Source of the DNA: a virus
Direction: 5' to 3' (one strand)
IMG/VR virus record: IMGVR_UViG_3300020478_000003
Span: 1 to 64,000 of that record
Length of the DNA: 64,000 nt
The notes under the pieces are model-generated. The model ran no database searches, had not been told where the DNA came from, and saw only the letters and a program-made list of their open reading frames with translations. A program made the translations under genes and the position numbers. Below, in pieces: positions 1-64,000 of the stretch; positions within the stretch are counted from its first letter, which is position 1, and each line of letters opens with the position of its first letter.

Positions 1-275
1 AGCGGCAACCTTAGATGCTTCATCAATTTTAGTAGCAGTTTTAGTACCAGCTTCTGTTATATCTGAAGTAACTTTAGCACCTTTAGCCGCAACCTTAGAT
101 GCTTCATCTACCTTAGTTCCAACTTTGGTTCCAGCTTCTGTTACTTGAGTCCCAAGTTTTGCTACATCATCAACCTTTGCCGCCATCTTAGCGGCTTCAT
201 CTACCTTAGTTCCAACTTTTGCAACATCATCTACTTTTGATAATGGTTTAATGGCATCATCGACTTTGGATACTG
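1..275 (-). repeat. Degenerate ~30-bp tandem repeats coding K-V-D-E decapeptides
   Basis: On the minus strand this stretch encodes seven or more consecutive units of about ten residues, e.g. KVDDAIKPLS, KVDDVAKVGT, KVDEAAKMAA, KVDDVAKLGT. The DNA repeats are also visible: positions 1-24 and 87-110 are nearly identical. The array continues past the left edge, so its total copy number is unknown. In a tape-measure protein, repeat number would affect length directly. Confidence 0.7.
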
Positions 276-1452
276 CTTTTACAACTTCATCGGATTTACC
301 AGCAATCTTGGATCCTAATTCACCGGCTCTTGCAAGATCATCTGCTTTCGTGGACAGCCCAAGAATGTTTTTCATTCCTAACCAGCCTCCACCTAGTCCC
401 ATTAAAGGCATTAGAAATCTACCACCAAACTTCATTAGTTGCGATAGTAATCCTCCACCTTCTTTATCTTTCTTGTTCAATGAAGGTCCACCACCTAAAC
501 CCTTCATACCTTGAGCGAATTTTTTATCTCTGCGATCCTCTAAAGCCATTCTTGCGGCTTTAATCTCTCTTGCTTCTCTCCGCCTGTCCATAGCAAGTTC
601 TTCTCTTTCAATTTCGAGAAGTTCATCTATCTGTTCAGACTCTATTCCTAAAGGATCTCCATCGAGCATTGTCGCCATAGAAACGGGAGTACCTTCAGTT
701 CCTGGAGCATCTCCTGATACTTTCTCAGGGGCTTTAGTTGGTCCACCAGCTATACCTTTAAGAGATGGAGCATCTCCACCTGATTCCGCATCTTCTATTT
801 GCTCGTGCTTAATTCCTAAATACTCTTCTTCAGCCTTATTGATTTTTTCCTGAAGTTCTTTATTTGATGTTTCTAGTTCTTTCGCCTCGATTTTTTCAAT
901 AATTTGATCTTTAGTGAGTTCATTAAACTCTCCTAAATTCTTTAATTCTTCAGCAAGAGCCGATATTCTTAATTCGTTTGCTTTAGCATTAGCAATTGAC
1001 TTTTTCTTTAAGTCCCTTTCGGCTTGTCTTTTTCTTTGTACCGCTTCATTTCGTACTTGCTGTGCCGCATACTGTTCAGCCGATATTCCAGACATAGCGG
1101 AAGCCATACTTTGTTTTCGTACTTTATCCCTTTGGACTTTTGCTTTGGCTTCCTCTACTCCACGGGCATCGGCTATTTCCTTTTCTTCTTCAGTCAGAGC
1201 ATTATAACCGCTTACTCTATCCCTTATAGCTTGAATATAACTACCATTCTCACGCATCCAATCTCTATGCGTTGCCATTTCTTCGGCAAGCAGTATTTTT
1301 GATTGTTCTTTTTCTTCCGCCCTTTGTCGTTTTCTTTGTTGTTTTAAGGCTTTGGATTCCCCGGACAGCATCTTATTCATCTTTTCGATACCACCTCCAA
1401 TGACGGCTTTCGCCCCCATTACTTTAGCCCAGGTTTCCATTGTTGAAGCCAT
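1..1452 (-). CDS. Tape-measure-like tail protein, gp29 position (partial)
   Basis: The reading frame is open from an ATG at 1450-1452 to the left edge (484 codons seen), so the C-terminus is missing. A good Shine-Dalgarno (AGGAGA) precedes the ATG, which overlaps the stop of the frameshifted gp26/gp51 frame as TAATG, suggesting translational coupling. Residues about 35-330 are charged, Lys/Glu/Arg-rich and predicted coiled coil. About 330-370 is Gly/Leu/Met-rich and hydrophobic. The last ~90 visible residues are ten-residue repeats built on K-V-D-E/D-x-A/V-x-K. Position directly after a gp26-type chaperone with a frameshift is where tape-measure genes normally lie, and T4 gp29 is the tape measure. 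No direct sequence match to gp29 was recognised, so the function is inferred from context and composition. Confidence 0.55.
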   Translation of the reverse strand, partial: MASTMETWAKVMGAKAVIGGGIEKMNKMLSGESKALKQQRKRQRAEEKEQSKILLAEEMATHRDWMRENGSYIQAIRDRVSGYNALTEEEKEIADARGVEEAKAKVQRDKVRKQSMASAMSGISAEQYAAQQVRNEAVQRKRQAERDLKKKSIANAKANELRISALAEELKNLGEFNELTKDQIIEKIEAKELETSNKELQEKINKAEEEYLGIKHEQIEDAESGGDAPSLKGIAGGPTKAPEKVSGDAPGTEGTPVSMATMLDGDPLGIESEQIDELLEIEREELAMDRRREAREIKAARMALEDRRDKKFAQGMKGLGGGPSLNKKDKEGGGLLSQLMKFGGRFLMPLMGLGGGWLGMKNILGLSTKADDLARAGELGSKIAGKSDEVVKAVSKVDDAIKPLSKVDDVAKVGTKVDEAAKMAAKVDDVAKLGTQVTEAGTKVGTKVDEASKVAAKGAKVTSDITEAGTKTATKIDEASKVAA

Positions 1453-1646
1453 TAAGGTCTCCTATTTCTCATTTGTTCGTGTCGTTCTTTTTCTTGTTGT
1501 AAATGTTCCGCTAAAAGTGAAACATAAATTTCTCTTTCATACGGAATCATATGCTCTAAATCATATAAACTATAGTTGTGGTGTTGCATAAGCTGGAAGT
1601 TGGTCTTGTAATGATTGACCAACGTATCGTAGCTTATGCAAAGCCG
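1452..1646 (-). CDS. 51: gp51-like frame, reached by -1 frameshift from gp26
   Basis: This frame has no good independent start at its beginning but is open from just upstream of the gp26 stop to TAA at 1452-1454. It adds 64 residues, including HHNYSLYDLEHMIPYERE, a pattern typical of the second half of tail-assembly chaperones. A -1 slip on the heptamer T-TTT-TTC (1646-1652) would give a 311-residue gp26-gp51 fusion; an internal ATG (residue 20 of this segment) could alternatively give a 45-residue free protein. The segment lies immediately before the tape-measure-like gene with stop/start overlap, as in lambda G/GT and relatives. The symbol is by position and motif and is tentative. Confidence 0.6.
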   Translation of the reverse strand, partial: RLCISYDTLVNHYKTNFQLMQHHNYSLYDLEHMIPYEREIYVSLLAEHLQQEKERHEQMRNRRP

Positions 1647-2386
1647 AAAAAATCCTCCAGCCCCTCCAATGTGACTGGCTCTTTATGACCACACTTTGAA
1701 CACTTATAATCAATTACGTGTCTCAAACGTGGCTGATTTGCGAAAAAATCTTTAATTGCATCAAATGCTGGTTCGTGCATATGCTCTACAAATTGACTCA
1801 TTTCAGCTTTTGATGTTTCAGCTCCTTTATAAACATTCTCTGCATCAAATACATAATCTATTGAATCCACAATAACTTTAAACATTTTTTCAATAGAGTC
1901 GTTTTCATTATCGTGGACTTTCATCTCAGAAGTAGACAAATATTTTAACTGGATACCTATTGCATCCGTTAACATTACCTTAGAATAATCTTTGTCCGGA
2001 AAATCGATTTTGATTTCATCGATTTTAATAGAATACTTGTCTATATTTCCACAGGGTACTCCATCCTTTTCTTGATTACAGGTAAATGATGGCTCAATTA
2101 CTTCTCCTCTGCTTTTTGCTCTAATATTTAAGAACAAAAAATCCACATCAAACTGAGGTAATTTCTCTGTATCGAGTTTTCCATCTGTGCAGTTGTCGAT
2201 GATTCTTATAATTACATCCCTTACTGCATTTTGAAACTCAACTCCTTTTAATGTTTTCGCTCCTTCCATTGCTGTAAGAAGAATCTTTTCTTCTTTCACC
2301 AGAAATGGGCGATAAGTTACAGTTACTTTCTTGTCCGATGGCAAGGTCAACTTGTACATCGGAGTTTCTAACTTCGGTAATGCCAT
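1634..2386 (-). CDS. 26: gp26-like baseplate hub / tail assembly chaperone
   Basis: A 250-residue protein resembling the T4 gp26 baseplate family: a short N-terminal beta region that starts MALPKLETPMYKLTLPSD, then a helical middle. It carries two cysteine pairs. One is CNQEKDGVPC around residue 103, and the other is a zinc-ribbon-like C-x2-C (YKCSKCGHKEP) near residue 230, just before the stop. The start has a clear AGGAGA seven bases upstream. T4 gp26 acts in assembly of the central hub. The C-terminal frameshift site into the next frame suggests two products, as for other tail chaperones. Somewhat longer than T4 gp26 (~208 aa). Confidence 0.75.
   Translation of the reverse strand: MALPKLETPMYKLTLPSDKKVTVTYRPFLVKEEKILLTAMEGAKTLKGVEFQNAVRDVIIRIIDNCTDGKLDTEKLPQFDVDFLFLNIRAKSRGEVIEPSFTCNQEKDGVPCGNIDKYSIKIDEIKIDFPDKDYSKVMLTDAIGIQLKYLSTSEMKVHDNENDSIEKMFKVIVDSIDYVFDAENVYKGAETSKAEMSQFVEHMHEPAFDAIKDFFANQPRLRHVIDYKCSKCGHKEPVTLEGLEDFFGFA
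1646..1652 (-). promoter_or_regulatory. Slippery heptamer T TTT TTC (-1 programmed frameshift)
   Basis: Read on the minus strand in the gp26 frame the codons are GAT TTT TTC GGC, so the heptamer matches X XXY YYZ. It lies four codons before the gp26 stop. A perfect 7-bp stem (GTTGGTC with GACCAAC, plus-strand 1599-1605 and 1617-1623) lies about 22 nt downstream, and a small GCTT/AAGC hairpin lies closer. Stem spacing is longer than usual, so the stimulatory structure is uncertain, but the slip site and the open -1 frame fit well. Confidence 0.65.
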
Positions 2387-2420
2387 AATATTATCTCCTA
2401 TATTCGCATTATATAATCAA

Positions 2421-3146
2421 TTATGTTGGTCCTCTTCTGTCTGATAAAAAATGACCTTCATTAAATTTTCCGCCAGTAGCGGTAGTATCTGAATCAGCCC
2501 ACCATCCGTGTCCTGGATCAGTATGATTCCAATCTCTAAATACCCAAGTTACAGTAAAAGTAGCAATCTCTCCTTCTGAACCCCACATATATTCTACTGG
2601 TCCTAATGCTGATGGATATGCTTCTATTAATGCAATATTAGCAATTGCTCCACCTTGTCTATCGAGAGGTATAATTCTTATTTCTGAAGCAATATAATCT
2701 TGATAATAACTTAATGTGTATACCTGTCTATGAGAAGGTTTGGGACTATTTTTAGACACTCCAGTTCCGTGTTTTACTTGTCCCATAATAGCGGCTATCC
2801 ATCCATCAAAAAATCTATGTTCGGCATAGTCTTCACCAATCATAAATGTCATCGTTACAGTATCAATAATTAAATCGTTTGCTACTTTAAAGATGGGACC
2901 GAAACGTTTAACATCGATTGTACCTAGATTTTTGCCTGGAACAGATACTTGTTTTGCTTTATACGAAAGAAATTTGGTTCCGCCTTTTTCTTTTTCTACT
3001 CCAGTATAAAATTCTCCTAAGTATCCACCGCCACCAGACATACCCATATCTTTATGTCCTTTGGGCATATAAATTTCGATAGAATATAAATTATTTCTAG
3101 CGAAATCTTCTTTAGTTATTACTTCATTAAAATCCGATACTTGCAC
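2421..3146 (-). CDS. 54: gp54-like baseplate tail-tube initiator
   Basis: This 241-residue protein begins MQVSDFNEVITKEDFARNNL, which aligns with the start of T4 gp54 (DFN...DFxRNNxFS). It continues with tube-protein-type beta segments, such as VSVPGKNLGTIDVKRFGPIF and TVTMTFMIGEDYAEHRFFDGW, and ends in the EGEIATFTVTWVFRDW segment typical of the gp19/gp48/gp54 tube fold. The start codon is GTG (3144-3146), sharing one base with the upstream TAG, with GGAG eight bases before it. In T4, gp54 sits on gp48 and nucleates tube polymerisation. It is shorter than T4 gp54 (~320 aa), so gp54 rather than gp19 is judged from the N-terminus and from the separate gp19 at 57852. Confidence 0.65.
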   Translation of the reverse strand: MQVSDFNEVITKEDFARNNLYSIEIYMPKGHKDMGMSGGGGYLGEFYTGVEKEKGGTKFLSYKAKQVSVPGKNLGTIDVKRFGPIFKVANDLIIDTVTMTFMIGEDYAEHRFFDGWIAAIMGQVKHGTGVSKNSPKPSHRQVYTLSYYQDYIASEIRIIPLDRQGGAIANIALIEAYPSALGPVEYMWGSEGEIATFTVTWVFRDWNHTDPGHGWWADSDTTATGGKFNEGHFLSDRRGPT

Positions 3147-3817
3147 TATTTACTCCAAACTGATTTAGCTGAGGCACCCACAAATCTTTGATAAGGTAGA
3201 AATATAGCATTCTCCCATTCATTAGGCGGTGCTTCTAATAGACTTGTTCTTACGTGTCCATATAGGTATTTATGTATCATCTTATCGGAGTTTTTGATGT
3301 TCTTTACCGATCTCCAAGTCATATTAAAACGTGCTTTGTCAGTCATATCTTCTACCTCTCCCTTTTGGGAAGCAAATTTCATTATCTTGTTCATAAATTT
3401 CATTCTTTCGATAGGATGTAAGTAATGAAAGTTCAGTCCCATAAAGCCGTCTTTATACGCATCTAGAACAATAATAAGAGGAAATTTATCCCAATATGGT
3501 AGAATCGCTTTCAGTTTGGCATCATATCCAAACGTGTACATCTTTCCAGGTCTTAACTGGGCTTTCTTCTTAAATCCTTTAGCAGATTCTCCAACTTTTT
3601 GTTTAAACCACGCTACCGACTTTTTTGTTTGTCTAGCTTTAGAAATTCTCTTCGGAGACAATTGGGCTTTTGTTAATTCGGCTCCAATTGCTCTTCTAGC
3701 CATTTGACCGACTTTATTCGTTCTGGTTACTTTGCCCCATTGACTGCCTATCCAACGATATTTGTTTCCGTCGGAAGCGACTCTTTCAGTTCCTTTTGCG
3801 ATGTCTACTACAGCCAT
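3146..3817 (-). CDS. Conserved-looking phage protein, function unassigned
   Basis: 223 residues, not assigned to a named family. The N-terminal ~70 residues are basic (VASDGNKYRWIGSQWGKVTR, then many Lys/Arg). The second half has a compact aromatic core: YDAKLKAILPYWDKFPLI, then GFMGLNFHYLHPIERMKF, and a C-terminus reading EAPPNEWENAIFLPYQRF. It lies between gp4 and the gp54-like gene in one minus-strand operon, one base from gp4's stop and overlapping the next start by one base, so it is probably a virion or DNA-end protein. In T4 the gp2 DNA-end protector lies beside gene 4, but I see no firm similarity to it. Confidence 0.6.
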   Translation of the reverse strand: MAVVDIAKGTERVASDGNKYRWIGSQWGKVTRTNKVGQMARRAIGAELTKAQLSPKRISKARQTKKSVAWFKQKVGESAKGFKKKAQLRPGKMYTFGYDAKLKAILPYWDKFPLIIVLDAYKDGFMGLNFHYLHPIERMKFMNKIMKFASQKGEVEDMTDKARFNMTWRSVKNIKNSDKMIHKYLYGHVRTSLLEAPPNEWENAIFLPYQRFVGASAKSVWSK

Positions 3818-3818
3818 A

Positions 3819-4268: not shown

Positions 4269-4274
4269 CTCAGT

Positions 4275-4282
4275 TATTTATA
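4275..4282 (-). promoter_or_regulatory. Late promoter TATAAATA (minus, for gp4 operon)
   Basis: TATAAATA on the minus strand, matching the T4 late promoter core recognised by gp55-type sigma. It ends six bases before the gp4 ATG, so the mRNA would be leaderless or nearly so. It overlaps the divergent plus-strand promoter by two bases. Confidence 0.6.
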
Positions 4283-4288
4283 TAAATA
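4281..4288 (+). promoter_or_regulatory. Late promoter TATAAATA (for gp48 operon)
   Basis: Perfect TATAAATA followed by G, 39 bases before the gp48 ATG, in the 59-base divergent gap between gp4 and gp48. Confidence 0.75.
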
Positions 4289-4327
4289 GTTCAAATACTA
4301 CTTATTTAGCACGATTGAGGTACAACA

Positions 4328-5907: not shown

Positions 5908-5913
5908 TATATT

Positions 5914-43284: not shown

Positions 43285-44427
43285 ATGAAAAAAGGTCGTT
43301 CTAAGGCTTTCTTTATTAATGGTGGCGCTGGAAGAGTAATATGTTCTATACCTGCATTTGAAAAATATGCAAAAGATTCTGGTGATAAAAATTTTGTAAT
43401 TGTCTGTGAAGGCGGAATGGACTTCTACCGAGGTCATCCTGTCTTACAAAAACACTCATACGAAGTATGGCATAAAGGTCTTTTCGACCAACATCTCCGC
43501 GATAAAGATATCGTAACTCCAGAGCCATACAGAATCAACGAATATTTCAATCAAAAATGTTCTCTTGCTCAAGCATTTGATATCGAAATCAATGGTCTTG
43601 ATAAGCCTAGAGAATTACCTCCCCCTTCCATCACTCTCAATAAGATGGAATCAGTTACTGGATATCAAGCGATTCAGCAAATCAAATCTCAATTAAACAA
43701 AGACAAAGCACTTATTGTTCAACCATTTGGTCGATCCGTAACACAAGTAGGAGAATATTTAATTGACGGCACTTCAAGATCCTTTGAAGTACAGAATATA
43801 ATCAATATTATTGATGGTCTCCGTAAGTTTTATGCAGTAATTGTAATGGCGGATCTTGCACTTCCTATTCCAGAAAATAAAGAAGCACCAGTTGCAATGC
43901 CCAGAGAACCCAATTTAAGATTGTGGGCTTCTATGATAAATTCCGCAGATCATTTCTTGGGATGTGATTCTGTTGGACAACATATGGCAAAAGCACTTGG
44001 TAAAACCGCTACTGTAGTTATTGGTTCTACTGTACCAATTAATATTTCTTATCCTAATGATGATAATATTGACATTATAGATATTGGAAAAGAAAATGGA
44101 AGAGATTATGCTCCTATTAGACTCACTATGGATGATGAGAAAGATAGGGCGAATGATGGTTCAATGATGCTAACTGAAGAACAAGAGCAACGGGTTATCG
44201 ATTCGTGTATAGAATATTTAGGCGAAGGAAAGGGATTTCAAGGAAGATTTATTCCTACCGGACATACTCAAAGTTGTTCAATGCACAATCCTACTGAAGA
44301 AGCAATTAAAGAATCTAAATATGATTTCAAAGCGGAAAATCTTTTAGCAGATTCTAACAAAGATAAAAACGCTACTATTGAACCGTTTGGAAAAGTTGAG
44401 CCTTACGAAGTGAAAGTAAATGAGTGA
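43285..44427 (+). CDS. GT9-like glycosyltransferase (heptosyltransferase-type)
   Basis: 380 residues. FFINGGAGRVICSIPAFEKY near the start corresponds to the GGxGDxxxxxPAL nucleotide-sugar fold start of GT9 ADP-heptose transferases. LWASMINSADHFLGCDSVGQ then HMAKALGKTATVVIGST (around residues 215-250) matches the family's conserved second-domain stretch (A-x2-F-x-G-x-D-S-x2-x-H-x-A-A/K-A-L-G-K-x-V-x2-F/I-G-S-T). Start chosen at ATG 43285 because AGGTGA lies six bases upstream; a GTG at 43282 is too close. First gene of the cassette under the sigma-70 promoter; it overlaps the next gene by eight bases. Substrate is inferred only from the HldD-like gene nearby. Confidence 0.6.
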   Translation: MKKGRSKAFFINGGAGRVICSIPAFEKYAKDSGDKNFVIVCEGGMDFYRGHPVLQKHSYEVWHKGLFDQHLRDKDIVTPEPYRINEYFNQKCSLAQAFDIEINGLDKPRELPPPSITLNKMESVTGYQAIQQIKSQLNKDKALIVQPFGRSVTQVGEYLIDGTSRSFEVQNIINIIDGLRKFYAVIVMADLALPIPENKEAPVAMPREPNLRLWASMINSADHFLGCDSVGQHMAKALGKTATVVIGSTVPINISYPNDDNIDIIDIGKENGRDYAPIRLTMDDEKDRANDGSMMLTEEQEQRVIDSCIEYLGEGKGFQGRFIPTGHTQSCSMHNPTEEAIKESKYDFKAENLLADSNKDKNATIEPFGKVEPYEVKVNE

Positions 44428-46156
44428 GTGGATAGCTGGTATTGCTCTAGGGCATAATGCTGGCGTTTGTTTATTAAAAGATGGTGAAATTGTTTTCTCT
44501 GTTGAGGAAGAAAGACTATCAAAGTTTAAGCACGACGGTGGTCCTCTTCTCAGTATGATGAAAATCTTAGACTATACAGATAAACTTGATTATCTGGTAA
44601 TCTCTCATTTAATAGCTAATCCAGAAGACATAAAAGAATACACGGTTTTAGAATATACTAGAGAACCTCTTTATCAAGGATTTGCCAGAAGATTAGGATT
44701 AATTGAACAATCAAGACTAGTTAAAGAACAATCACCACAAGTTATCAATATGATTGATAACCATCATCAATGTCACTCCGCAATTGCTTTTTACAATTCT
44801 GGATTTCAGACAGCGGCGAGTGTTATTGTAGATAGCAATGGAAGTTCTAATCGATTAACTGATGACGGAGTAATATATTATGAAACAGAATCTATTTTTG
44901 ATTGTTCTTATACAAAAGGAATAAAAACAATATATAAAAAGGTTCATTGTACTAAGGGAAAAAGTTATTTATTACTAAAAAATTATAATCCCGATTTGAA
45001 CGAAACGTTTGATTTAGAAGCAGATGAAGGTCCGGGAATTGGAAAAGTATGGGATGCGGTCACAGATTATTGTGGATTTCACGTAAACGAATGTGGAAAG
45101 ACAATGGGATTATCTGCATACGGCGCACCAAACCCAAACTTACCAGACTTATTTCAAAATGATACTGCTAATAAAGATTTGATAAAAGCATTTTATCCAT
45201 ACAGATCCGAACTGAATACAAACAAATATAATATTTTAGATGTTTTGGAATCAGCCGATCAGGATATGGCTTTCAAAGTACAAGAGGAAACCCAAGAACA
45301 AGTCTTAAAGTTAATTATCAAAGCATCCGAGATGAGTAACAATAAGAATGTGGTATTAAGTGGAGGCTATGCTCTCAATTGTGTTTCTAATTATTATTAC
45401 TTGGATAAACTGAAAGAACACGATATTAATTTGTATGTAGAACCAAATTCGTCTGATGCTGGAACTGCAACTGGTGCCGCCTTGTTATATCATTATCGAA
45501 AAGGTGATATAAATAAACGAGAAAGAATTGAGAGTTTATATCTAGGGCCGGAACAAGAGTATACCGGTTACGATGTTTTTCAAATTATTGACAGTTACAA
45601 TGGACAAGTGAATGATGCTTCATATAAAGAAATTGCCGAACTAATTAAAGAAGGAAATATAGTTGCTATATTTCAGGGTAGGTCTGAAAATGGACCTAGA
45701 GCATTAGGAAATAGAAGTATTTTGTTCAATCCAACCATAAAAAATGGCAAAGATATCGTAAACAAAGTAAAGAAACGGGAATGGTTTAGACCATTTGCCG
45801 CTTCAGTAATGAAAGAATATGCTCACGATTGGTTTGATATGAAAGGCTTAAAAGAGTCTCCTCATATGATGTATGCGGTTGATGTTAAAGAAGATAAGAA
45901 AAATTTAATACCAGCAGTTTTACACGTAGATGATACTTGCAGAATACAGACCGTTAATAAAAATGTAAATGAACATTATTATAATCTCATTGAGGAGTTT
46001 TATAAATTAACAGGTATACCGTTATTGTTCAATACTTCATTGAATCTAGCAGGAGATCCTTTAGCGGAAACTCTTGATGATGTGATGAAAATTTTAACCG
46101 ATTCGGAAATGGAATATTGTTATATGCCCGAACACGCAACTTTAATTAAATTATAA
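44420..46156 (+). CDS. NodU/CmcH-family carbamoyltransferase, copy 1
   Basis: 578 residues with the family order: WIAGIALGHNAGVCLLKDGE and SVEEERLSKFKHDGG at the N-terminus; MIDNHHQCHSAIAFYNSGF near 110-128; GKTMGLSAYGAPNPNLP; NVVLSGGYALNCVSNYYYLD; EPNSSDAGTATGAALL; SENGPRALGNRSILFNP near 422-438; and FNTSLNLAGDPLAETLDDV at the end. These proteins transfer carbamoyl from carbamoyl phosphate to a hydroxyl through a carbamoyl-adenylate. His residues of the HHQCH stretch are the expected metal/active-site ligands. Known members carbamoylate sugars or antibiotics; the acceptor here is unknown. Starts inside the end of the glycosyltransferase gene. Confidence 0.85.
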   Translation: MSEWIAGIALGHNAGVCLLKDGEIVFSVEEERLSKFKHDGGPLLSMMKILDYTDKLDYLVISHLIANPEDIKEYTVLEYTREPLYQGFARRLGLIEQSRLVKEQSPQVINMIDNHHQCHSAIAFYNSGFQTAASVIVDSNGSSNRLTDDGVIYYETESIFDCSYTKGIKTIYKKVHCTKGKSYLLLKNYNPDLNETFDLEADEGPGIGKVWDAVTDYCGFHVNECGKTMGLSAYGAPNPNLPDLFQNDTANKDLIKAFYPYRSELNTNKYNILDVLESADQDMAFKVQEETQEQVLKLIIKASEMSNNKNVVLSGGYALNCVSNYYYLDKLKEHDINLYVEPNSSDAGTATGAALLYHYRKGDINKRERIESLYLGPEQEYTGYDVFQIIDSYNGQVNDASYKEIAELIKEGNIVAIFQGRSENGPRALGNRSILFNPTIKNGKDIVNKVKKREWFRPFAASVMKEYAHDWFDMKGLKESPHMMYAVDVKEDKKNLIPAVLHVDDTCRIQTVNKNVNEHYYNLIEEFYKLTGIPLLFNTSLNLAGDPLAETLDDVMKILTDSEMEYCYMPEHATLIKL

Positions 46157-46165
46157 GGATAAAAA

Positions 46166-47947
46166 ATGAGTCAGTGGATTGCAGGAATGTCTCGTGGACA
46201 TAACGCTACAGTATGTTTATTGAAAGACGGAGAAATCGTGATGCAAATCGAAGAAGAAAGATTATCACGAAGAAAATATGATGGCGGACCATATGCCGGA
46301 ATAGTTAAAATTTTGGACTATACAGATAAACTTGATTATCTAGTGATTGCTCATACCCAGCCAGATGTTAGTAATGTAGATTTTAGGGGTGGAAGCATAT
46401 ACAATGGACTTGCTCAAAAATTGGGTCTAATTAATGATGATTCTCAAGTATTGGATATGCACAAATGGCACCATAAATTACACGCCGCTTGTGCTTTTTA
46501 TAGGTCTGGATTTGATGAAGCAGTGGCAGTTATTGTTGATGGTGCCGGAACATTTATTCCATTGATTTTGAATCAAGAAGAAGTTATGTCTTGGGAATTG
46601 GAAACGATAATGACTTGTAATTATCCAGATGAGTTTAAAACTCTCTATAAACATCAAGGAGGTAGAGGACCTTGGGCATCTTATTATGATGCAGAACAGG
46701 AATCTAGTCGAGAAGGCGAAACAGGAACACACGAATTGATACTTGATGATTCTGGTGGTATCGTAAAAGCATATGAAGCCGTAACACAATATTGTGGATG
46801 GGCGCCTATCGAAGCTGGAAAAACGATGGGTTTATTTCCATATGGCGGACCATCTGATTATTTTCCTCCTATATATTCTGATGGAGGTGGTGGAGAATGG
46901 AAAACTACAGACAGAAATTTAATTATTCCAACATTTCCCAATGGAGCAGTGGTCAATGAAACTCGTTACAAAGGATTGAGAAGTACCGCAGAAGATATGC
47001 GAGGTGATGTAACTTTGCTCCAGAATCGTAGAGATATGGCTTGGGCTATTCAAAAAGAATCTCAACAAATGGTTCTTGATTTGATTCGCAAAGCGGTTGA
47101 GATGAGTGGTAAGAAAAATGTTGTTCTTTCTGGTGGATATGGATTGAATTGTGTCGCTAATTACTGGTATCTTGATCAATTAAAAGACGAAGATATAAAT
47201 TTTTATGTAGAACCTGTCAGTAATGATGCAGGAACTGCTATGGGTGCGGCATTCCTGGCCCATTATTCTCTTACTAAAGACACAAAAGTACGACCATATG
47301 GAGAGAATCTGTGTTTGGGTCCTGAGGTAATGCAATCTACTGAAGATATTATTAAAATTGCAGAAAAATATGGAGCAACTGGTGTATATGAAAAACAATA
47401 TGCAATAGATGCCGTTAAATTAATTTTGAAAGAAAACATTGTTACCTTATTTCAAGATAGGTGTGAGAGCGGTCCAAGGGCTTTGGGCAATCGTTCTATC
47501 CTATATGATCCACGAACGGTTGAGGGAAAAGACTATGTTAACTCCGTAAAAAAGAGGGAATATTTTCGACCGTTCGCAGGATCTATTCTTCACGAACACG
47601 CCCACGATTGGTTTGATATGCGTGGAATGGAAGAATCTCCTCATATGATGTATGCAATGTATTGTAAAACAGAAGAATATGCAAAACAAATTCCGGCTAT
47701 TATTCACATAGACGGAACTTGTAGAATACAAACTGTTAAAGAACATCAAAATCCAATTTACTATGAAATCATTAATGAGTTTTATAAGCAAACTGGAGTT
47801 CCAATTATCTTTAATACATCTTTCAATCTTGCTGGTGAACCCTTGGTGGAAACTATCGATGATGCGATTAGAACATTAGCGGAAAGCGATATCGAATACC
47901 TATATATACCAGAGAAAGAACTTATTATAGAAGTAGCAAACAAGTAG
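46166..47947 (+). CDS. NodU/CmcH-family carbamoyltransferase, copy 2
   Basis: 593 residues, a diverged tandem paralogue of the preceding gene. The same landmarks are present: WIAGMSRGHNATVCLLKDGE, IEEERLSRRKYDGGPYAG, HKWHHKLHAACAFYRSGFDE, GKTMGLFPYGGPSDYFP, NVVLSGGYGLNCVANYWYLD, EPVSNDAGTAMGAAFL, CESGPRALGNRSILYDPRT and FNTSFNLAGEPLVETIDDA. The HHQCH motif of copy 1 is HHKLH here. Both copies keep the catalytic framework, so both may be active, perhaps on different positions of one sugar or as a hetero-oligomer. The start follows nine bases after the first copy's stop, with AAGGA upstream. Confidence 0.85.
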   Translation: MSQWIAGMSRGHNATVCLLKDGEIVMQIEEERLSRRKYDGGPYAGIVKILDYTDKLDYLVIAHTQPDVSNVDFRGGSIYNGLAQKLGLINDDSQVLDMHKWHHKLHAACAFYRSGFDEAVAVIVDGAGTFIPLILNQEEVMSWELETIMTCNYPDEFKTLYKHQGGRGPWASYYDAEQESSREGETGTHELILDDSGGIVKAYEAVTQYCGWAPIEAGKTMGLFPYGGPSDYFPPIYSDGGGGEWKTTDRNLIIPTFPNGAVVNETRYKGLRSTAEDMRGDVTLLQNRRDMAWAIQKESQQMVLDLIRKAVEMSGKKNVVLSGGYGLNCVANYWYLDQLKDEDINFYVEPVSNDAGTAMGAAFLAHYSLTKDTKVRPYGENLCLGPEVMQSTEDIIKIAEKYGATGVYEKQYAIDAVKLILKENIVTLFQDRCESGPRALGNRSILYDPRTVEGKDYVNSVKKREYFRPFAGSILHEHAHDWFDMRGMEESPHMMYAMYCKTEEYAKQIPAIIHIDGTCRIQTVKEHQNPIYYEIINEFYKQTGVPIIFNTSFNLAGEPLVETIDDAIRTLAESDIEYLYIPEKELIIEVANK

Positions 47948-47954
47948 GAGAAAA

Positions 47955-49382
47955 ATGCAAAATGCTGAGGAAAAATATTTGTCGGAATTAACCGAAGAAG
48001 AATTAGAAGAAGAAAGAAAACTGAGAGTAGTAGATCCAGCTAGGAGCAAAATTTATGAAGAGGAAAGGAAAATGAAGAAAGAAAAAGATCCTACTGGAAT
48101 ACATCGCAATGATTCATTGATTCCTCCACGAGAATTTGAAGGAGCAGATCCGAAAAATTTAGGTAGGGAAGGAGATGTAGATGGTTCTATTCCTGTCGAT
48201 GCTCTTCCTGGTCAATCAGATGGTTTAATTTATAAGAATAAAATTCCTGTGAGTACTGGCGGAGTTCTTGGAGTTGATATGTCTCCGGAGGAACAACGAG
48301 AAAAAAGAAAAGAACTTCCGGACGAACTTAATATTTACGGTCAACCTTCAGAACCTCTTCAGCCTCCACCAAATGCTCCTAAGACAGAAGGATATAGTCT
48401 TGAGGAAGTAAGAGAAATTGTTCAAAAGAAATGGAGAGAAGAACACGGACAACCCGAGACGCCAATATCTGATGAAGAACAAGCAAAACGTACCAAAGCC
48501 GCCCAAAAATTAATTGTCGTTACTGGTGCCGCAGGTTTTATGGGGTCACATTTGGTAAGAGCATTAAATAGTGCAGGACGAGAGGATTTATTGCTTGTTG
48601 ATGATTTGAGCGATCCTGCTAAACTAAAAAATATTTCTAATTGTGTATTTCAGGACTATTCAGATAAAAGTAAGTTTCTAGAACTTTTTGCTTTTATTGC
48701 AGAAAATGGAATGGTTGAACGTATATATCATCTTGGTGCAGAAAGCGACCGTAATTGTCAAGATGGAAAATATTTAATGGAAAACAATTTTCAATATACA
48801 GCCAATCTTATGGACCTATGTCATATGCACAAAATACCTATGGTATATGCTTCTAGTGCCGCAGTATATGGTCAATCAAAAACTTTCGATGATACCACAG
48901 ATAATTATGTTCCAGAAAGTTATTATGCTTTAAGTAAACTCCAAGCAGATAGATATCAAAGAAAATTTACGGCTCACGCGGAAAGTAGAATTATCGGATT
49001 AAGATACTTTAATGTTGTATCAGAAGGAGAATATGAGCAACATAAAGGAGATATGAAATCAGCGGTAGCTTGGATGACAGAACAATTTGACTGGAAGGGA
49101 GAAATAGAATTATTTGAAGGTTCAAAAAACTTCCGTCGTGATTTTGTACACGTTAAAGCCGCTATTTGGATGACAATGAATGCTATGGACAAGGGACGTT
49201 CTGGAATTTATAATATAGGAACAGGAACAGCAAGATCATTTTATGATATGGCTATGGAGATTTGCGAAGATGACCAGAAAATTAAATACATTCCTATGCC
49301 GGAAGAAATAGCAAAAGGATATCAAAAACTAACTAAAGCAAATATGGATAATGCTTGTTTTGGAATAACTACCAGACCTTAA
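47955..49382 (+). CDS. HldD-like ADP-heptose epimerase with long N-terminal extension
   Basis: 475 residues. Residues ~185-475 are an extended SDR epimerase: TGAAGFMGSHLVRAL (NAD loop, G191/G194/G197), MVYASSAAVYGQS, Y324-x3-K328 (YALSK), GLRYFNVVSEGEYEQHKGDM, then FRRDFVHVKAAIW, SGIYNIGTGTARSF and IPMPEEIAKGYQKLTKANMD. The latter three match E. coli HldD (ADP-L-glycero-D-manno-heptose 6-epimerase) closely. The C-terminal helix of HldD is missing; the protein stops at GITTRP. The first ~185 residues are charged and Pro-rich (SELTEEELEEERKLRVVDPA; SDGLIYKNKIPVSTGGVLGV), of unknown function, and unusual for an epimerase. Confidence 0.75.
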   Translation: MQNAEEKYLSELTEEELEEERKLRVVDPARSKIYEEERKMKKEKDPTGIHRNDSLIPPREFEGADPKNLGREGDVDGSIPVDALPGQSDGLIYKNKIPVSTGGVLGVDMSPEEQREKRKELPDELNIYGQPSEPLQPPPNAPKTEGYSLEEVREIVQKKWREEHGQPETPISDEEQAKRTKAAQKLIVVTGAAGFMGSHLVRALNSAGREDLLLVDDLSDPAKLKNISNCVFQDYSDKSKFLELFAFIAENGMVERIYHLGAESDRNCQDGKYLMENNFQYTANLMDLCHMHKIPMVYASSAAVYGQSKTFDDTTDNYVPESYYALSKLQADRYQRKFTAHAESRIIGLRYFNVVSEGEYEQHKGDMKSAVAWMTEQFDWKGEIELFEGSKNFRRDFVHVKAAIWMTMNAMDKGRSGIYNIGTGTARSFYDMAMEICEDDQKIKYIPMPEEIAKGYQKLTKANMDNACFGITTRP

Positions 49383-54398: not shown

Positions 54399-55973
54399 AT
54401 GACAAAAATTGCCTACCTAGGAAATCCCCTACTAAAAAGAATCAATGTTCCTCAGAATTATACTCAAGAAGAAATAGCCGAGTATATAAAATGCAGGGAC
54501 GATCCAATTTATTTCATTAAAGAATATATCTACATTGTCAACGTAGATAAAGGATTAATGAAATTTGATTTATATCCGTTTCAGGAAGAATTAATCAATG
54601 GTCTAGTTGATAACAGATTTAGTATAGTCAAATGTCCAAGACAGTCTGGAAAATCTCAGACAAGTCTTGCGTTTATGCTACATTATGTTTTATTTAACGA
54701 CCAGAGAAACGTAGCAATTTTAGCTAATAAAGGGATGACTGCAAGAGAATTGTTGGGTCGTCTTCAAATGGCTTATGAAAAACTTCCTATGTTCTTGCAA
54801 CAAGGTGTATTGGAATGGAACAAAGGTTCTATTCATTTAGAAAACGGATCTAGAATTCTTGCATCTTCTACATCGGCAAGTACCATTCGAGGTTATGCTT
54901 TTAATCTGATTTTTCTAGATGAGTTTGCATTTATTCCACAAAATCTAGCAGAAGATTTTTTCAATTCTGTTTATCCTACCATATCATCTGGAGAAACTTC
55001 CCAAGTTATTATTGTTTCTACACCGAATGGTATGAATCATTTTTATAAGATGTGGCAGAATGCAATAGATGAAAGATCGGAATATAAAGCATTTGAAATC
55101 AATTGGTGGGATGTTCCTGGACGAGATGAAGCGTGGAAGAAACAAACAATTGCAAATACGAGTGAGGAGCAATTCAAACAGGAATTTGAAACTGAATTCC
55201 TAGGTAGTGCTGGTACTCTAATTGCTCCTGCAAAAATTTCTTCACTAGCGGTTAAAAATCCTCTTTCACGAAAAGATGGTCTGGACGTTTATGAAGAAAC
55301 AATACTAAATAACAGATATTTTATAGCCGTAGATGTAGCAGAAGGACGTGGACAAGATTACTCAGCCTTTAGTGTAATTGATATTACAGAAATGCCGTGG
55401 AAACAGGTAGCAAAATATCATTCAAATACAATATCTCCTCTGCTCCTTCCCACTATCATCCACCAAGTCGCATCCGCATATAATAATGCTACAGTTTTAA
55501 TTGAATCGAATGGTCCCGGAGCAGAAGTTTGTAATATTCTTCATTACGACCTGGAATATGAACACTCTATTAATGAATCCGGGGTTCAATCAAAATTAGG
55601 AATCAAAATGACTAAGCGAGTTAAAGCGGTTGGTTGTTCTAATTTTAAAGACCTTATAGAAAATGATAAATTAATTATTAATGATTTGGAGACAATATCA
55701 GAAATATCTCAATTTGTTGAACGTGGTAAAAGCTGGAAAGCAGAAGATGGTGGAAATGATGATTTGGTTATGGCTCTTGTATTATTCTCGTGGTTTTCAT
55801 CTCAAGATTTGTTTAAGGAATTGAATAACGTAGACTTGAGGACTAAATTATATGATGAACAAATGCAACAATACGAAGATGAATTGACTCCATTCGGATT
55901 TATCGATGATGGTCAAATGGAAGAAGATAAGTATACGGTTGAAGGTGGAGAAGTCTGGCAGATTTATAATTAG
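54399..55973 (+). CDS. 17: Terminase large subunit gp17
   Basis: 524 residues (T4 gp17 ~610). Walker A CPRQSGKSQTS at residues ~79-89, Walker B LIFLDEF at ~170-176, then the C-motif-like VIIVSTPNGMNHFYKMW. The RNase-H-like nuclease has its first Asp in IAVDVAEGRGQDYS (~D312), the second acidic site in VLIESNGPGAEVCNIL (~E368) and the third in GGNDDLVMALVLFSWF (~D455). It is the ATP-driven packaging motor and headful nuclease, acting at the portal. The shorter length reflects N- and C-terminal trimming typical of non-T4 members. No inteins or frameshifts. Confidence 0.95.
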   Translation: MTKIAYLGNPLLKRINVPQNYTQEEIAEYIKCRDDPIYFIKEYIYIVNVDKGLMKFDLYPFQEELINGLVDNRFSIVKCPRQSGKSQTSLAFMLHYVLFNDQRNVAILANKGMTARELLGRLQMAYEKLPMFLQQGVLEWNKGSIHLENGSRILASSTSASTIRGYAFNLIFLDEFAFIPQNLAEDFFNSVYPTISSGETSQVIIVSTPNGMNHFYKMWQNAIDERSEYKAFEINWWDVPGRDEAWKKQTIANTSEEQFKQEFETEFLGSAGTLIAPAKISSLAVKNPLSRKDGLDVYEETILNNRYFIAVDVAEGRGQDYSAFSVIDITEMPWKQVAKYHSNTISPLLLPTIIHQVASAYNNATVLIESNGPGAEVCNILHYDLEYEHSINESGVQSKLGIKMTKRVKAVGCSNFKDLIENDKLIINDLETISEISQFVERGKSWKAEDGGNDDLVMALVLFSWFSSQDLFKELNNVDLRTKLYDEQMQQYEDELTPFGFIDDGQMEEDKYTVEGGEVWQIYN

Positions 55974-58439: not shown

Positions 58440-58475
58440 TAGTAATACTTACTTAAATTAACAAACAATGGTGAT

Positions 58476-59999
58476 ATGGAACTATTTGGTTATAAGATAG
58501 AGAAGAAAATCGGCTCATCTGTGGTAGATAAAGGATCAAAATCTTTTGTCGCACCAAACCTAGACGATGGTTCCACAGTTATTGACGGAGGAGGAGTACA
58601 CGCCTTCTCCGTTAATTTCGATACCGCATTTAAAACACAGCAAGAATTAATTGCTAAATATCGGGCTTGTGCGAGAAATCCAGAAGCTGAATCGGCAATT
58701 GATGACATAGTTAATGAAGCTGTGGTTCTGGATCCTTATAAGGACCCAGTTACAATCTATCTTGATAAACTGGACACAGTTGATGTGCCTAAGAATATCA
58801 AAGATATGATTGCAACCGAATTTGATGTTATTTCCAAGAAATTGGAGTTTAATAAGTCTGGACCAGAAATATTCAGACGGTGGTATGAAGATGGAGCAAT
58901 CCATTATCATATAATCTTTGATAACGATAATGTCAAAAAAGGTATTAAGGAGTTAAGATACATTGATTCCACTAATATCAAAAAGATCAAAGAAGTTATC
59001 AAAGAAAAAGACAAAGATGGAATTGAGGTAGTTAAAGGAGTTGATGAGTATTGGATCTACACTAAAGAAAGTAGAGGAATAACTCAGACACTAAAAGTTG
59101 CCCTAGAAGCGGTCGCCTATTGCGACTCTGGTCTTTATGACAAAGATAAGGAAGTTACTCTTTCTTACCTTCACAAGGCAATGAAGCCGATTAACCAATT
59201 GAGAATGTTAGAAGACTCAATGGTTATTTATCGGATTACTAGAGCACCAGAAAGAAGGGTGTTCTACATTGATGTTGGTAATTTACCAAAAACAAAAGCG
59301 GAACAGTACCTCCGTAACATTATGAACAAGTTTAAGAATAAGATGGTTTATGATGCGAGTAGTGGTACTGTAGCTGATGGTAAAGATACAATGTCAATGA
59401 TGGAAGATTTTTGGCTACCTAGAAAAGAGGGTGGTCGAGGAACTGAAGTCGAAACATTACCAGGAGGACAAAATCTTGGTGATATGGATGATGTAGCTTA
59501 TTTTCAGAAAAAGGTATATCAATCACTTCACGTTCCGTCAAGTCGGATGGAAACTGAACAATCTTGGAGTTTCTCTAGAACAGGTGAAATAACAAGAGAT
59601 GAAATAAAGTTTCAGAAATATGTAACAAAGTTACGTAAACGTTTCTCCGATTTACTGTATTCATTATTAAGGACTCAGCTTTTAGCGAAAGGTATTATCG
59701 ATAAAGGCGAGTGGAATGTCTATCAAGAGAATATTAATTTCATATTTCAAGATGATGGATATTTCTCAGAATTGAAAAAATTAGAGATAATGACCTCGAG
59801 GATTGAAATGCTTGATACTATATCAAGTGGAGAAATGATAGGTCGTTATTATTCAATTGAATGGGTTCGAAAAAATATTTTAATGCAATCTGAAGAAGAT
59901 ATGGATGTATTAGATAAACAAATGGAAGCAGAGAAAAAAGAAAAACAAGCTAAAAACACCGGCGGCGACGGCGATGACAAAGCACCCGATCTATATTAG
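58476..59999 (+). CDS. 20: Portal protein gp20
   Basis: 507 residues (T4 gp20 ~524). Landmarks: NPEAESAIDDIVNEAVVLDP, ELRYIDSTNIKKIKEVIKEK, LRMLEDSMVIYRITRAPERR, VFYIDVGNLPKTKAEQYLRN, MSMMEDFWLPRKEGGRGTEV and ETLPGGQNLGDMDDVAYFQK, then SRMETEQSWSFSRTGEITRD. These are the usual wing and stem/clip motifs. The portal forms the dodecamer at the unique vertex through which gp17 packages DNA. Clear ATG with GGTGAT upstream. Confidence 0.95.
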   Translation: MELFGYKIEKKIGSSVVDKGSKSFVAPNLDDGSTVIDGGGVHAFSVNFDTAFKTQQELIAKYRACARNPEAESAIDDIVNEAVVLDPYKDPVTIYLDKLDTVDVPKNIKDMIATEFDVISKKLEFNKSGPEIFRRWYEDGAIHYHIIFDNDNVKKGIKELRYIDSTNIKKIKEVIKEKDKDGIEVVKGVDEYWIYTKESRGITQTLKVALEAVAYCDSGLYDKDKEVTLSYLHKAMKPINQLRMLEDSMVIYRITRAPERRVFYIDVGNLPKTKAEQYLRNIMNKFKNKMVYDASSGTVADGKDTMSMMEDFWLPRKEGGRGTEVETLPGGQNLGDMDDVAYFQKKVYQSLHVPSSRMETEQSWSFSRTGEITRDEIKFQKYVTKLRKRFSDLLYSLLRTQLLAKGIIDKGEWNVYQENINFIFQDDGYFSELKKLEIMTSRIEMLDTISSGEMIGRYYSIEWVRKNILMQSEEDMDVLDKQMEAEKKEKQAKNTGGDGDDKAPDLY

Positions 60000-60011
60000 G
60001 AGATAAATATT

Positions 60012-60614: not shown

Positions 60615-60616
60615 AA

Positions 60617-61192
60617 ATGAGTCTGATTAAATTCGGAGATTATCTAGACGAACTATTAAATGCTCCTATTATTGAAACATTAGGAGAAGATGAAGTAATT
60701 GTCGAGTGGGCAGAAGAAGATTGGAATAAATTTACTGTTGCCGAAAAACTTGAACTGGAGACTGAAGCTAATGGTTGGTCAATGTGGCAAATTGGATCTA
60801 TTGAAGATCCAGGCAAATCGGGGATGTACATTGTTGCAGAAGATGAGCATATCTGGGAATATATTCATCAATTAGAAGAAGCAACCTGTGATGCGTGTGG
60901 AGAAGATCCGTGTATATGTAATAAAACTGAAGCAGATATAAATGCGGAAGAATGGCTTAAGGAATACAAAGCTAGAACTACTCAACAACGCAGACAAACG
61001 CAGAAAAATAAAGATCGGTTAAAATTTCAAAATCGTAGTCAGAAATTAAAAGATAAAATTGAGCGTAAAAAAGGCGGCAATAAAGTCAAACGTATGAAAT
61101 TAAGAAAAAAGTGGTTGAAAGTTAACCGTGCTAAAATCGCTAATGCTCAAAAAGTATATGGCGGGAAAGTCAAATCGAAATATACAAAATAG
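60617..61192 (+). CDS. Basic Cys-motif protein between core protein and gp21
   Basis: 191 residues. The N-terminal half is acidic (MSLIKFGDYLDELLNAPIIE; EDEVIVEWAEEDWNKFTVAE). Near residue 93-103 is CDACGEDPCICNK, a C-x2-C-x(4)-C-x-C that could bind zinc. The C-terminal half is strongly basic (TTQQRRQTQKNKDRLKF; KDKIERKKGGNKVKRMK). Position corresponds to T4 gp68 (prohead core), but no convincing similarity is seen. A role in core or DNA binding is a guess from charge. Confidence 0.55.
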   Translation: MSLIKFGDYLDELLNAPIIETLGEDEVIVEWAEEDWNKFTVAEKLELETEANGWSMWQIGSIEDPGKSGMYIVAEDEHIWEYIHQLEEATCDACGEDPCICNKTEADINAEEWLKEYKARTTQQRRQTQKNKDRLKFQNRSQKLKDKIERKKGGNKVKRMKLRKKWLKVNRAKIANAQKVYGGKVKSKYTK

Positions 61193-61199
61193 GAGTTAA

Positions 61200-61841
61200 A
61201 TGAGATTAATATCGGAAATTACCGAAAATGTAGAGTATATTCAAGAAGCTAACGGAAAGGATCTCTATATAGAGGGTGTTTTCTTGCAGGCGGACGTAAA
61301 AAATCGCAATGGCAGAATGTATCCTAGCAAAGTTATGGAGAAAGAAGTCAAGCGATATACAAAAGAATATATTGATAAGAAACGAGCGTTTGGTGAACTA
61401 GGACATCCTGAGGGACCAACTGTCAATTTAGATAGAGTTTCGCATATGATTACTGAATTGACTCAAGATGGAACAAATTGGAGAGGAAAAGCTAAAGTAA
61501 CTGATACTCCACACGGAAATATCGTTAAAAGCCTTATCAAAGAGGGAGCCCAACTTGGAGTCTCTTCTCGTGGTATGGGTTCGCTTAAAGCGAATAAAAA
61601 AGGATATCAAGAAGTGCAAGATGATTTCTATCTTGCTACAGCCGCGGATATTGTCGCGGACCCATCTGCTCCTGATGCTTTCGTAAATGGTGTTATGGAA
61701 GGAAAAGAGTGGGTATGGGATAATGGAGCAATCAAAGAAAAAGAGATTGCAAAGTATAATAAAATAATCAAAAAGACGCCGAAAAATCGATTAACATCGA
61801 TTGAAGCAACAATTTTTGAAGATTTTATGAATAAGTTGTAG
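61200..61841 (+). CDS. 21: Prohead maturation protease gp21
   Basis: 213 residues (T4 gp21 ~212). Family motifs: YIEGVFLQADVKNRNGRMYP, RAFGELGHPEG with the catalytic His69, VSHMITELTQDGTNWRGKAK, and LGVSSRGMGSLKANKKGY with the catalytic Ser around 122-123, then DFYLATAADIVADPSAPDAF. This serine protease sits in the core and cleaves scaffold and capsid proteins during head maturation. Length and motifs are normal, so it should be active. Confidence 0.95.
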   Translation: MRLISEITENVEYIQEANGKDLYIEGVFLQADVKNRNGRMYPSKVMEKEVKRYTKEYIDKKRAFGELGHPEGPTVNLDRVSHMITELTQDGTNWRGKAKVTDTPHGNIVKSLIKEGAQLGVSSRGMGSLKANKKGYQEVQDDFYLATAADIVADPSAPDAFVNGVMEGKEWVWDNGAIKEKEIAKYNKIIKKTPKNRLTSIEATIFEDFMNKL

Positions 61842-61867
61842 TAAAATGGAGACATATTGCTACGGTT

Positions 61868-61889
61868 AAACTAATTAGTTTTATAAATA
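61868..61889 (+). promoter_or_regulatory. Late promoter TATAAATA with abutting palindrome (for gp22-gp23)
   Basis: TATAAATA at 61882-61889, 60 bases before gp22. Immediately upstream is a perfect 14-base palindrome (AAACTAATTAGTTT, 61868-61881), which could bind a regulator. In T4 the scaffold/capsid genes are the most highly expressed late genes. Confidence 0.7.
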
Positions 61890-61949
61890 TAGTTACATAA
61901 TCGATTAGAACTAATTTATAGATTAATCAATAGGATTAGGAGAACCCTG

Positions 61950-63077
61950 ATGAAGTTAAAAACAGAAACTGGCGAAATGTTGGTTTTGGACGAAGAAACC
62001 CAAGTCTGGAAAGGCGAGGAAGAAGAGTCCACAACTTCTATTACGGTGTCAGAGGCTGATGAACTTTTAGAGAAGGGTGACCTGGAAATGGTTGCTGACT
62101 CATCTGAAATTGAAACTGCCGAAGAATCTCTTGAAGAAGCCGGAGAACCCAAAGGTAAACCGCTAAAGAAGAAAAAAATAGCGGTAGCTGGTTCAGGCGA
62201 AGTCGAAGTCCACGAAGATGATGACGAGGACGAAGATGACGAAGCTGATGGGGACGAGGCGGACGAAGATGACGATGACGAAGTAGAAGAAACCAAAGCA
62301 AAATCTGCCAAAAAAGAAGAAGTGGAATTGGAAGTTGATGTTGATGTTGAAGACGATGTTAAGGCATTGTTTGATGGTCAAGATTTGACAGAAGATTTTA
62401 AGGCACGAACAAAACTCGTTTTTGAGACTGCGGTTAAAGCTAAGGTTAAGGAGAATATTGCATCTCTTGAAGAAAAGATGCAAGAACAACTTGCCGAACA
62501 GACAGCCGCACAACTTGCCGATATTACAGAGAAATTAGATGGTTATCTAGACTATATGATTTCCGAGTGGATCGAAGATAATAGCAAGGCTATCGAACAC
62601 GAGCAGAAAAACGAAATTCTAGAAGGTTTCGTTAGTGGAATGCAGAAGTTGTTTGCTGACCATTACATTGAAGTTCCAGATGAACGATACAATGTAGTTG
62701 ATGAGCAAGCTAAAGAGATTGAAACTCTTAAAGAACAACTGGACGCTGAAATGAATAAAAACGTTGAAGCAAAAGGTAAACTTGCTGAAGCATCCGCTGA
62801 AAAGATTTTCAGAGAAGTAACAGAAGATTTGACTGAAACACAAAAAGCTAAGATGAAAAGTCTCGCAGATGGTGTGGAATTTGAAGATGCTGAGACCTTT
62901 GCTGAAAAACTCAACACTCTGAAGAAAACTTATTTTCCTTCAGAGGCAGAGAAAGAAGAAGTTGTTGCAGAAGAGGGTGCTAATGGTACTTCCTCGGAGG
63001 TAGTGATGTCTGATGCAATGAAAAAGGTTATGGCTTCACTTTCACAAACACGGGAAACAAGCATCTTAGGTGCTTAA
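61950..63077 (+). CDS. 22: Scaffold/prohead core protein gp22
   Basis: 375 residues (T4 gp22 ~269). An N-terminal ~90-residue region (KLKTETGEMLVLDEETQVW; EEESTTSITVSEADELLEKG) leads into a very acidic run (residues ~85-115, DDDEDEDDEADGDEADEDDD). The conserved core is GQDLTEDFKARTKLVFETAV, GYLDYMISEWIEDNSKAIEH and EGFVSGMQKLFADHYIEVPD, characteristic of gp22, followed by coiled coil. The C-terminus (SDAMKKVMASLSQTRETSIL) resembles the gp22 end. The acidic segment makes it longer than T4 and may be a cleavable linker. gp23 follows. Confidence 0.9.
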   Translation: MKLKTETGEMLVLDEETQVWKGEEEESTTSITVSEADELLEKGDLEMVADSSEIETAEESLEEAGEPKGKPLKKKKIAVAGSGEVEVHEDDDEDEDDEADGDEADEDDDDEVEETKAKSAKKEEVELEVDVDVEDDVKALFDGQDLTEDFKARTKLVFETAVKAKVKENIASLEEKMQEQLAEQTAAQLADITEKLDGYLDYMISEWIEDNSKAIEHEQKNEILEGFVSGMQKLFADHYIEVPDERYNVVDEQAKEIETLKEQLDAEMNKNVEAKGKLAEASAEKIFREVTEDLTETQKAKMKSLADGVEFEDAETFAEKLNTLKKTYFPSEAEKEEVVAEEGANGTSSEVVMSDAMKKVMASLSQTRETSILGA

Positions 63078-63110
63078 CATCATTTATCAAACTACTAGGA
63101 GAAACTGAAA

Positions 63111-64000
63111 ATGTTTTTATCAGAAGAAATTAAAGATAAGTGGCAGCCAGTTATGGAGCACGAAGATCTCCCAAAGATCGATGATGCTACCAAACGTGCG
63201 ATAACACTTCGTCTTTTAGAAAATCAAGAAAAGGCTTTGCAAGAAGCCAACGTTACAGGTGCTAACGTAGACAATTGGGATCCAATTCTCATTTCGTTGG
63301 TACGTAGAACTATGCCTCAGTTAATGGCGTATGATACTATTGGAGTCCAGCCTATGTCCGGACCTACTGGTCTCATTTTCGCTATGAAATCACACTATAC
63401 TGGCGAAGCCAGCACAGGTGCTGAAGCATTAACAACTGCCGCTGGTCAACCCGATGTCGATTTCTCAGGGAATGACGGTGCAACTCCAGCCACTACTACT
63501 TACACTACGTCCGACGGCGAAGCGTTAGGTGGATTTGTTTCAGGTGGAGGAGACTTCAAAGAAATGTCTTTCTCAATCGAGAAGTCGAGCGTTACAGCCG
63601 CTACTCGTGCGTTGAAAGCTAAGTATTCTTTGGAACTTGCTCAAGACCTTAAGGCTATCCATGGATTGGATGCTGAGTCAGAATTAAGCAACATTTTGTC
63701 TGCTGAAATTCTTGCTGAGATCAATCGTGAAGTTATCGAGAAAATTCTTTCTCAAGCGACTGCAGGAGCAGCCGCTGGAACAACTACTGCCGGAACATTT
63801 GACGTTGCAGATTCCACTGATAACAGAGGAGCACGTTGGGGTGGTGAGCGTTACAAGTCACTATTGATTCAAATCAACCGTGAAGCTAACTTAATTGCTA
63901 AGAATACCGGCCGTGGTGCTGGTAACTGGTTGCTTGTAAGTCCAGATGTTGCATCTGCACTTGATATGGTTGCCGGATTAGCAGTTCCTAATATGGATGT
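63111..64000 (+). CDS. 23: Major capsid protein gp23 (partial)
   Basis: 296 codons are visible; the gene runs off the right edge. An AGGAGAAACT site precedes the ATG. Pattern: LSEEIKDKWQPVMEHEDLPK, then VDNWDPILISLVRRTMPQLM and AYDTIGVQPMSGPTGLIFAM-KSHYTG, all typical of gp23, followed by EMSFSIEKSSVTAATRALKA and KYSLELAQDLKAIHGLDAES, then REANLIAKNTGRGAGNWLLV. The single CATG I found in the window lies in this gene, in the codons of A-I-H-G. The N-terminal ~60 residues are the prodomain removed by gp21. Confidence 0.95.
   Translation, partial: MFLSEEIKDKWQPVMEHEDLPKIDDATKRAITLRLLENQEKALQEANVTGANVDNWDPILISLVRRTMPQLMAYDTIGVQPMSGPTGLIFAMKSHYTGEASTGAEALTTAAGQPDVDFSGNDGATPATTTYTTSDGEALGGFVSGGGDFKEMSFSIEKSSVTAATRALKAKYSLELAQDLKAIHGLDAESELSNILSAEILAEINREVIEKILSQATAGAAAGTTTAGTFDVADSTDNRGARWGGERYKSLLIQINREANLIAKNTGRGAGNWLLVSPDVASALDMVAGLAVPNMD

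Follow-up and report, generated by a model that had tools for sequence, protein, structure and literature searches.

Elimination of restriction sites is already known as a phage strategy. CTAG and GATC are absent from all isolates of the HF1 group of haloviruses, and AGCT is also absent from HRTV-7, losses that have been read as restriction avoidance (PMC7230728). The survey of Rusinov et al. (2018) associates eliminated sites with orthodox type II systems and with non-temperate phages, and defines an "eliminated" class by a ratio below 0.1 and an expectation above 15. It also notes that, among coliphages of the myovirus family, avoidance of host sites is far stronger where hydroxymethylase is lacking than where it is present (PMC6286503).

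The phage record and its relatives

The window is the whole stretch of DNA analysed, 64,000 nucleotides, and corresponds to positions 1-64000 of a record of 124,360 bases. Relatives measure about 141 kb; the record may therefore be incomplete, and a phage gene bearing on the loss of CATG could be absent from it. T4-type portal, capsid, terminase, tail and replication genes are present in the record in an order conserved with respect to the genes of Methylophilales phage Melnitz, and the corresponding proteins show 22-65% identity to those of Melnitz. The closest named relatives at the DNA level are Melnitz and the Pelagibacter phages Mosig and HTVC008M. Judged by its genes, the record is that of a T4-like myovirus with Kyanoviridae relatives. 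To gather further relatives, IMG/VR was queried with the portal, polymerase, terminase, recombination protein, topoisomerase, helicase, baseplate and carbamoyltransferase. The main features of the window are:

1-64000, no strand: CATG-purged part of the record of a T4-like marine phage; 1 CATG against 204 expected (2 against 380 in the record)
54399-55973, plus strand: gp17 large terminase gene, the basis of the clade tree
58476-59999, plus strand: gp20 portal gene, a query for gathering relatives
63111-64000 (the gene ends at record position 64313), plus strand: gp23 major capsid gene, which bears the surviving site; 52% identity to Melnitz gp23

Beyond the window, the record carries a tryptophan-halogenase-like gene (85279-86976; L002:1279-2976). 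Its matches in sister loci reach only 34%, and no counterpart was found among the CATG-free relatives that were compared.

Loss of CATG at the DNA level

Trinucleotide counts predict 204 CATGs in the window and base composition predicts 218; the only one present is at 63660-63663 (z = -17.6), and CATG is the most extreme in depletion of all 256 4-mers. The whole record has 2, at 63660 and 67597, where 380 are expected (z = -23.8); the second most depleted 4-mer, AGCT, stands at 232 of 416 expected, and no other word comes near CATG. With an observed/expected ratio below 0.1 and an expectation of at least 15, CATG falls within the eliminated range in both the record and the window. A first-pass annotation, made from the letters of the window, had correctly placed the single site in gp23, where the reading frame is ATC CAT GGA (IHG), and its estimate of about two hundred expected sites agrees with the computed values. 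It had also proposed counting all 4-mers of the full genome against a model and against codon-shuffled genes. The first count puts CATG lowest, at 2 of 380, with unrelated 4-mers not equally depleted. The second used synonymous-codon shuffles, which preserve the proteins and the codon usage: these gave 319 +/- 13 CATGs (minimum 280 in 200 shuffles) where 1 is observed in 102 CDS, and 334 where 2 are observed in a wider set of 126 CDS. The loss thus exceeds any effect of protein sequence and codon usage.

The purge is synonymous and is achieved through codon choice. Throughout the record, histidine codons that precede a G are CAC in 234 cases and CAT in 1, while before other bases CAT (459) outnumbers CAC (161), and none of the 874 methionine codons is preceded by a C. 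Both patterns had been noticed by eye in the window, and the counts bear them out. The sister clade, by comparison, writes histidine before G as CAC 142 times and as CAT 128 times, and has a C before 99 of its 1627 methionine codons. Dipeptides of the His-G type are no rarer in the record than in the sister clade, which argues that the selective pressure acts on the DNA and not on the protein.

Accessory genes are included in the purge:

44420-49382, plus strand: accessory block without CATG, comprising two NodU-like carbamoyltransferase genes and a heptose-epimerase-like gene; common to 35-40 CATG-free loci

This sharing fits the suggestion, made from the window by itself, that such genes have belonged to the lineage for enough time to lose their sites.

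Distribution of avoided words among relatives

CATG falls below 0.13 of expectation in 154 overlapping loci (1.86 Mb), a redundant set with several loci per contig, and the lowest value outside this group is 0.19. The sister clade retains about half of its expected sites (387 of 782), and T4-like loci outside the clade, 114 of them in an earlier set limited to lengths of 8 kb or more, have a median of 0.66 of expectation. The terminase tree unites the CATG-free sequences with modest support (80/64), and the sister group with support of 100/99. The absence of CATG is a clade trait. That it should be a product of library preparation, assembly or chance is hardly credible: codon-shuffled controls retain the word, the same CATG-free pattern is seen in contigs from many metagenomes, and CATG is at normal frequency in T4-like contigs from outside the clade in the same metagenomes, which rules out preparation and assembly as the cause.

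Over half of the CATG-free loci (89 of 154) have also lost AGCT (16 of 2325 expected) and GATC (8 of 4169). We refer to phages that lack all three words as triple-purged and to the others as CATG-only. The query lineage retains AGCT and GATC, yet on the terminase tree it is nested (97/97) within sequences free of both, and at least three changes of state are needed. The simplest reading of this tree has avoidance of AGCT and GATC arising first and relaxing afterwards; repeated gain is possible. The first-pass annotation had remarked that other four-base palindromes are easily found. They are indeed present, but a normal frequency is not universal among them, since the window has AGCT at 111 of 206 expected, GGCC at 12 of 62 and GCGC at 13 of 43. 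GGCC is partly avoided in the query as well. Among longer words, codon shuffling of the record gives AAGCTT at 0 of 41 expected, ATGCAT at 0 of 38 and AGATCT at 1 of 42, and GCAGC/GCTGC (18 of 122) and CACTG/CAGTG (35 of 134) are reduced beyond codon effects. These avoided 5- and 6-mers suggest that additional restriction specificities may have acted on the query.

Other T4-like loci wholly lack differing palindromes. L113 has no AGCT (69 expected), GATC (104), ACGT (33) or CGCG (19); GTAC is missing from L163 (58 expected) and L245 (51); and L207, L208 and L244 likewise belong to this group.

A mutation bias, or a constraint on DNA unrelated to restriction such as repair, protein binding or a CRISPR motif, might also have removed CATG, and the mild deficit outside the clade (median 0.66) is in keeping with such a process. 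However, mutation bias would not reduce one palindrome to less than 1% of expectation and leave CATA, CATC, CATT and GATG common, as they are in the window, nor would it strike AGCT and GATC equally in neighbouring phages; a CRISPR motif would not be expected to take the form of a 4-base palindrome. We consider this explanation very improbable.

Contexts of the surviving sites

The few sites that survive are not distributed at random with respect to their flanks. The site in the window is:

63660-63663, no strand: sole CATG of the window, within CCATGG (63659-63664), at a His-Gly of gp23; aligned CATG-free relatives have CACGG

Alignment makes the purge directly visible: at this His-Gly, where the query has CATGG and its CATG-free relatives CACGG, the sister clade has CATGG in two of four different sequences (L196 and L022). 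In CATG-only phages, CCATGG is the context of every one of the 8 distinct survivors in contig interiors (query 63660 and 67597; L103; L279-281; L286-288; L303; L362; L363); one more survivor, ACATGC in L169, is at a contig edge, 15 bases from the end. Against a neutral share of 8.6% for CCATGG, p is about 3e-9, or 2.5e-8 if the L169 edge site is included, values that are descriptive because the contexts were picked after inspection of the data. The CATG-only sample retains 8 of 65 expected CCATGG (12%, an eightfold depletion). Full exemption of CCATGG is ruled out by this figure; the context has been less strictly purged, not exempted.

Different contexts are found in the triple-purged phages. 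The 9-mer TGGCCATGA accounts for 9 of 15 distinct CATG survivors, which are spread over different genes and all three frames; a further context, CATGAGG, is included in 4 of the 15. The sites of the 9-mer are:

L259: 7341, 18881
L260: 1988, 3629
L309: 3806
L339: 49
L449: 1195, 7286
L490: 9733

Since survivors occur in all three reading phases, a constraint at the protein level is ruled out. In one triple-purged subgroup TGGCCATGA is over-represented about ninefold, with 10 observed against 1.1 expected and a maximum of 5 in 300 codon shuffles, an excess that also rules out neutral tolerance as the sole source of the 9-mer. In this subgroup it is frequently extended to AAATCATGGCCA, in varying genes, frames and orientations.

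The surviving AGCTs of triple-purged phages show a similar restriction of context. All 6 distinct sites are CCAGCT/AGCTGG, for which the neutral share is 10.4% (p about 1e-6, again descriptive of a context chosen after inspection):

L013: 9196
L182: 1954
L185: 13716
L257: 1782, 4913
L289: 74

The effect of context repeats across independent contigs. Most likely, these contexts (CCATGG in the query lineage; TGGCCATGA, CATGAGG and CCAGCT in relatives) mark sites that are poorly cut, and overlapping methylation or flank-dependent cutting could account for most of them. A stricter version, in which sites persist only beneath an overlapping methylase of CCATGG, TGGCCA or CCA type, and TGGCCATGA is either protected in this way or itself a functional element, is possible but rather doubtful. 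If true, part of the methylome of an uncultivated host would be readable from viral sequence alone.

Probable restriction by the host and the rival of a phage nuclease

CATG is a 4-base palindrome of the kind recognized by orthodox type II enzymes, as are AGCT and GATC in the relatives, and it is the core word of NlaIII-type restriction-modification systems. The best explanation for its loss, to which we assign a probability of roughly 85%, is purifying selection on the phage by type II restriction of the host at CATG. A single palindrome is affected, at the DNA level, in accessory genes as well as in the rest and throughout a clade, and AGCT and GATC have been lost equally in neighbouring subclades; for these reasons a CATG-cutting host enzyme is the preferred reading. 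The lineage would long have infected bacteria with a system of NlaIII-type specificity that cuts unmethylated CATG. Every CATG in incoming DNA would reduce survival, so that mutations creating the word would be eliminated and synonymous changes destroying it fixed until almost none remained. Surviving contexts would be those cut poorly: a second host methylase may overlap them, or the enzyme may act on them slowly.

The host enzyme is one that we infer, because no host was found; a portal scan of genome contigs gave a single match, at 46%. Methyltransferases of families PF00145, PF01555 and PF02086 were not found in the record or in the clade, and the record has no gene of PF00303, the thymidylate synthase/hydroxymethylase family. 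The dCMP hydroxymethylase of T4 belongs to the thymidylate synthase family. Lacking these three main methyltransferase families and PF00303, the phage DNA is probably not hypermodified. Two observations sit poorly with a plain CATG cutter: CCATGG remaining at 12% of expectation is not predicted, and the excess of TGGCCATGA (10 against 1.1) is not accounted for by simple escape from cutting. The proposal that NlaIII-like selection shaped the window, made in the first-pass annotation, is accordingly upheld as to the core word, although some contexts (CCATGG in the query lineage) have been purged less strictly than it implied.

Alternatively, the phage could encode its own CATG nuclease, perhaps packaged in the head, that attacks the DNA of the host or of competitors and spares a phage devoid of its sites. 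The candidate is a 437-aa gene of unassigned family (record 94454-95767; L002:10454-11767), found in 41 CATG-free loci and in no sister loci, 24 of which hold the neighbouring helicase. The leader of its product (MLKFRSFIPEGK) is similar to the head-targeting leaders of T4-type internal proteins, its invariant D219 and SVK could form a variant of the PD-(D/E)xK motif, and the top structure matches to its predicted fold (pLDDT 81) are chains of HincII, although these are non-significant (best E 0.14, TM below 0.16). Against such a role, a homologue occurs in phage C48C1, where CATG is normal (27 of 38). The query copy is 74-77% identical to copies from triple-purged phages and only about 31-33% identical to those from CATG-only phages; the gene therefore fails to follow the set of words lost. 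Additional nucleases would be required for the loss of AGCT and GATC, and a search that lacked a positive control gave no match to ICEA, which is related to NlaIII. We regard the 437-aa gene as a weak rival to host restriction, and a phage nuclease as an improbable cause of the loss.

Comparison with known systems

No description of clade-wide nested word sets together with strict survivor contexts was found in the open-access literature covered by the search. As to context-dependent survivors in particular, nothing relevant was found in that literature, which is weak evidence of novelty, and survivor contexts are absent from the results and discussion of the Rusinov survey (PMC6286503).

The record shares the core word CATG with NlaIII-type systems; no gene of such a system was found in the phage record, and the assignment of the putative enzyme to this type follows from the avoided word. 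In Melnitz, too, palindromes are strongly avoided (GATC 23 of 498 expected, CGCG 1 of 61), but it retains CATG (398 of 639) and has a cytosine-5 methyltransferase, which the query does not. Longer words are also missing or scarce in Melnitz (MZ577097.1; L005-L007), with AACGTT at 0 of 43 expected, GTGCAC at 0 of 24 and TCATGA at 1 of 21.

CATG in the record fits the "eliminated" class of Rusinov et al., being a palindromic, type II-like word in what is probably a non-hydroxymethylated myovirus; a difference is that the viruses of that survey had known hosts and enzymes (PMC6286503). The HF1-group haloviruses resemble the present phages in that whole palindromic 4-mers are gone from complete genomes, but they are archaeal viruses that avoid other words, and their CATG is merely reduced, to 0.24-0.44 (PMC7230728). 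The marine T4-like clade, by comparison with the HF1 group, has lost CATG in every member and AGCT and GATC in a nested subset. The loss is near-absolute, is common to a whole uncultivated marine clade, and is nested, some members having lost CATG alone and others all three words. The avoided words may thus serve as a heritable fingerprint of the restriction enzymes of the hosts and of changes in them, and the strict contexts of the survivors offer a testable handle on the sites that escape restriction in nature.
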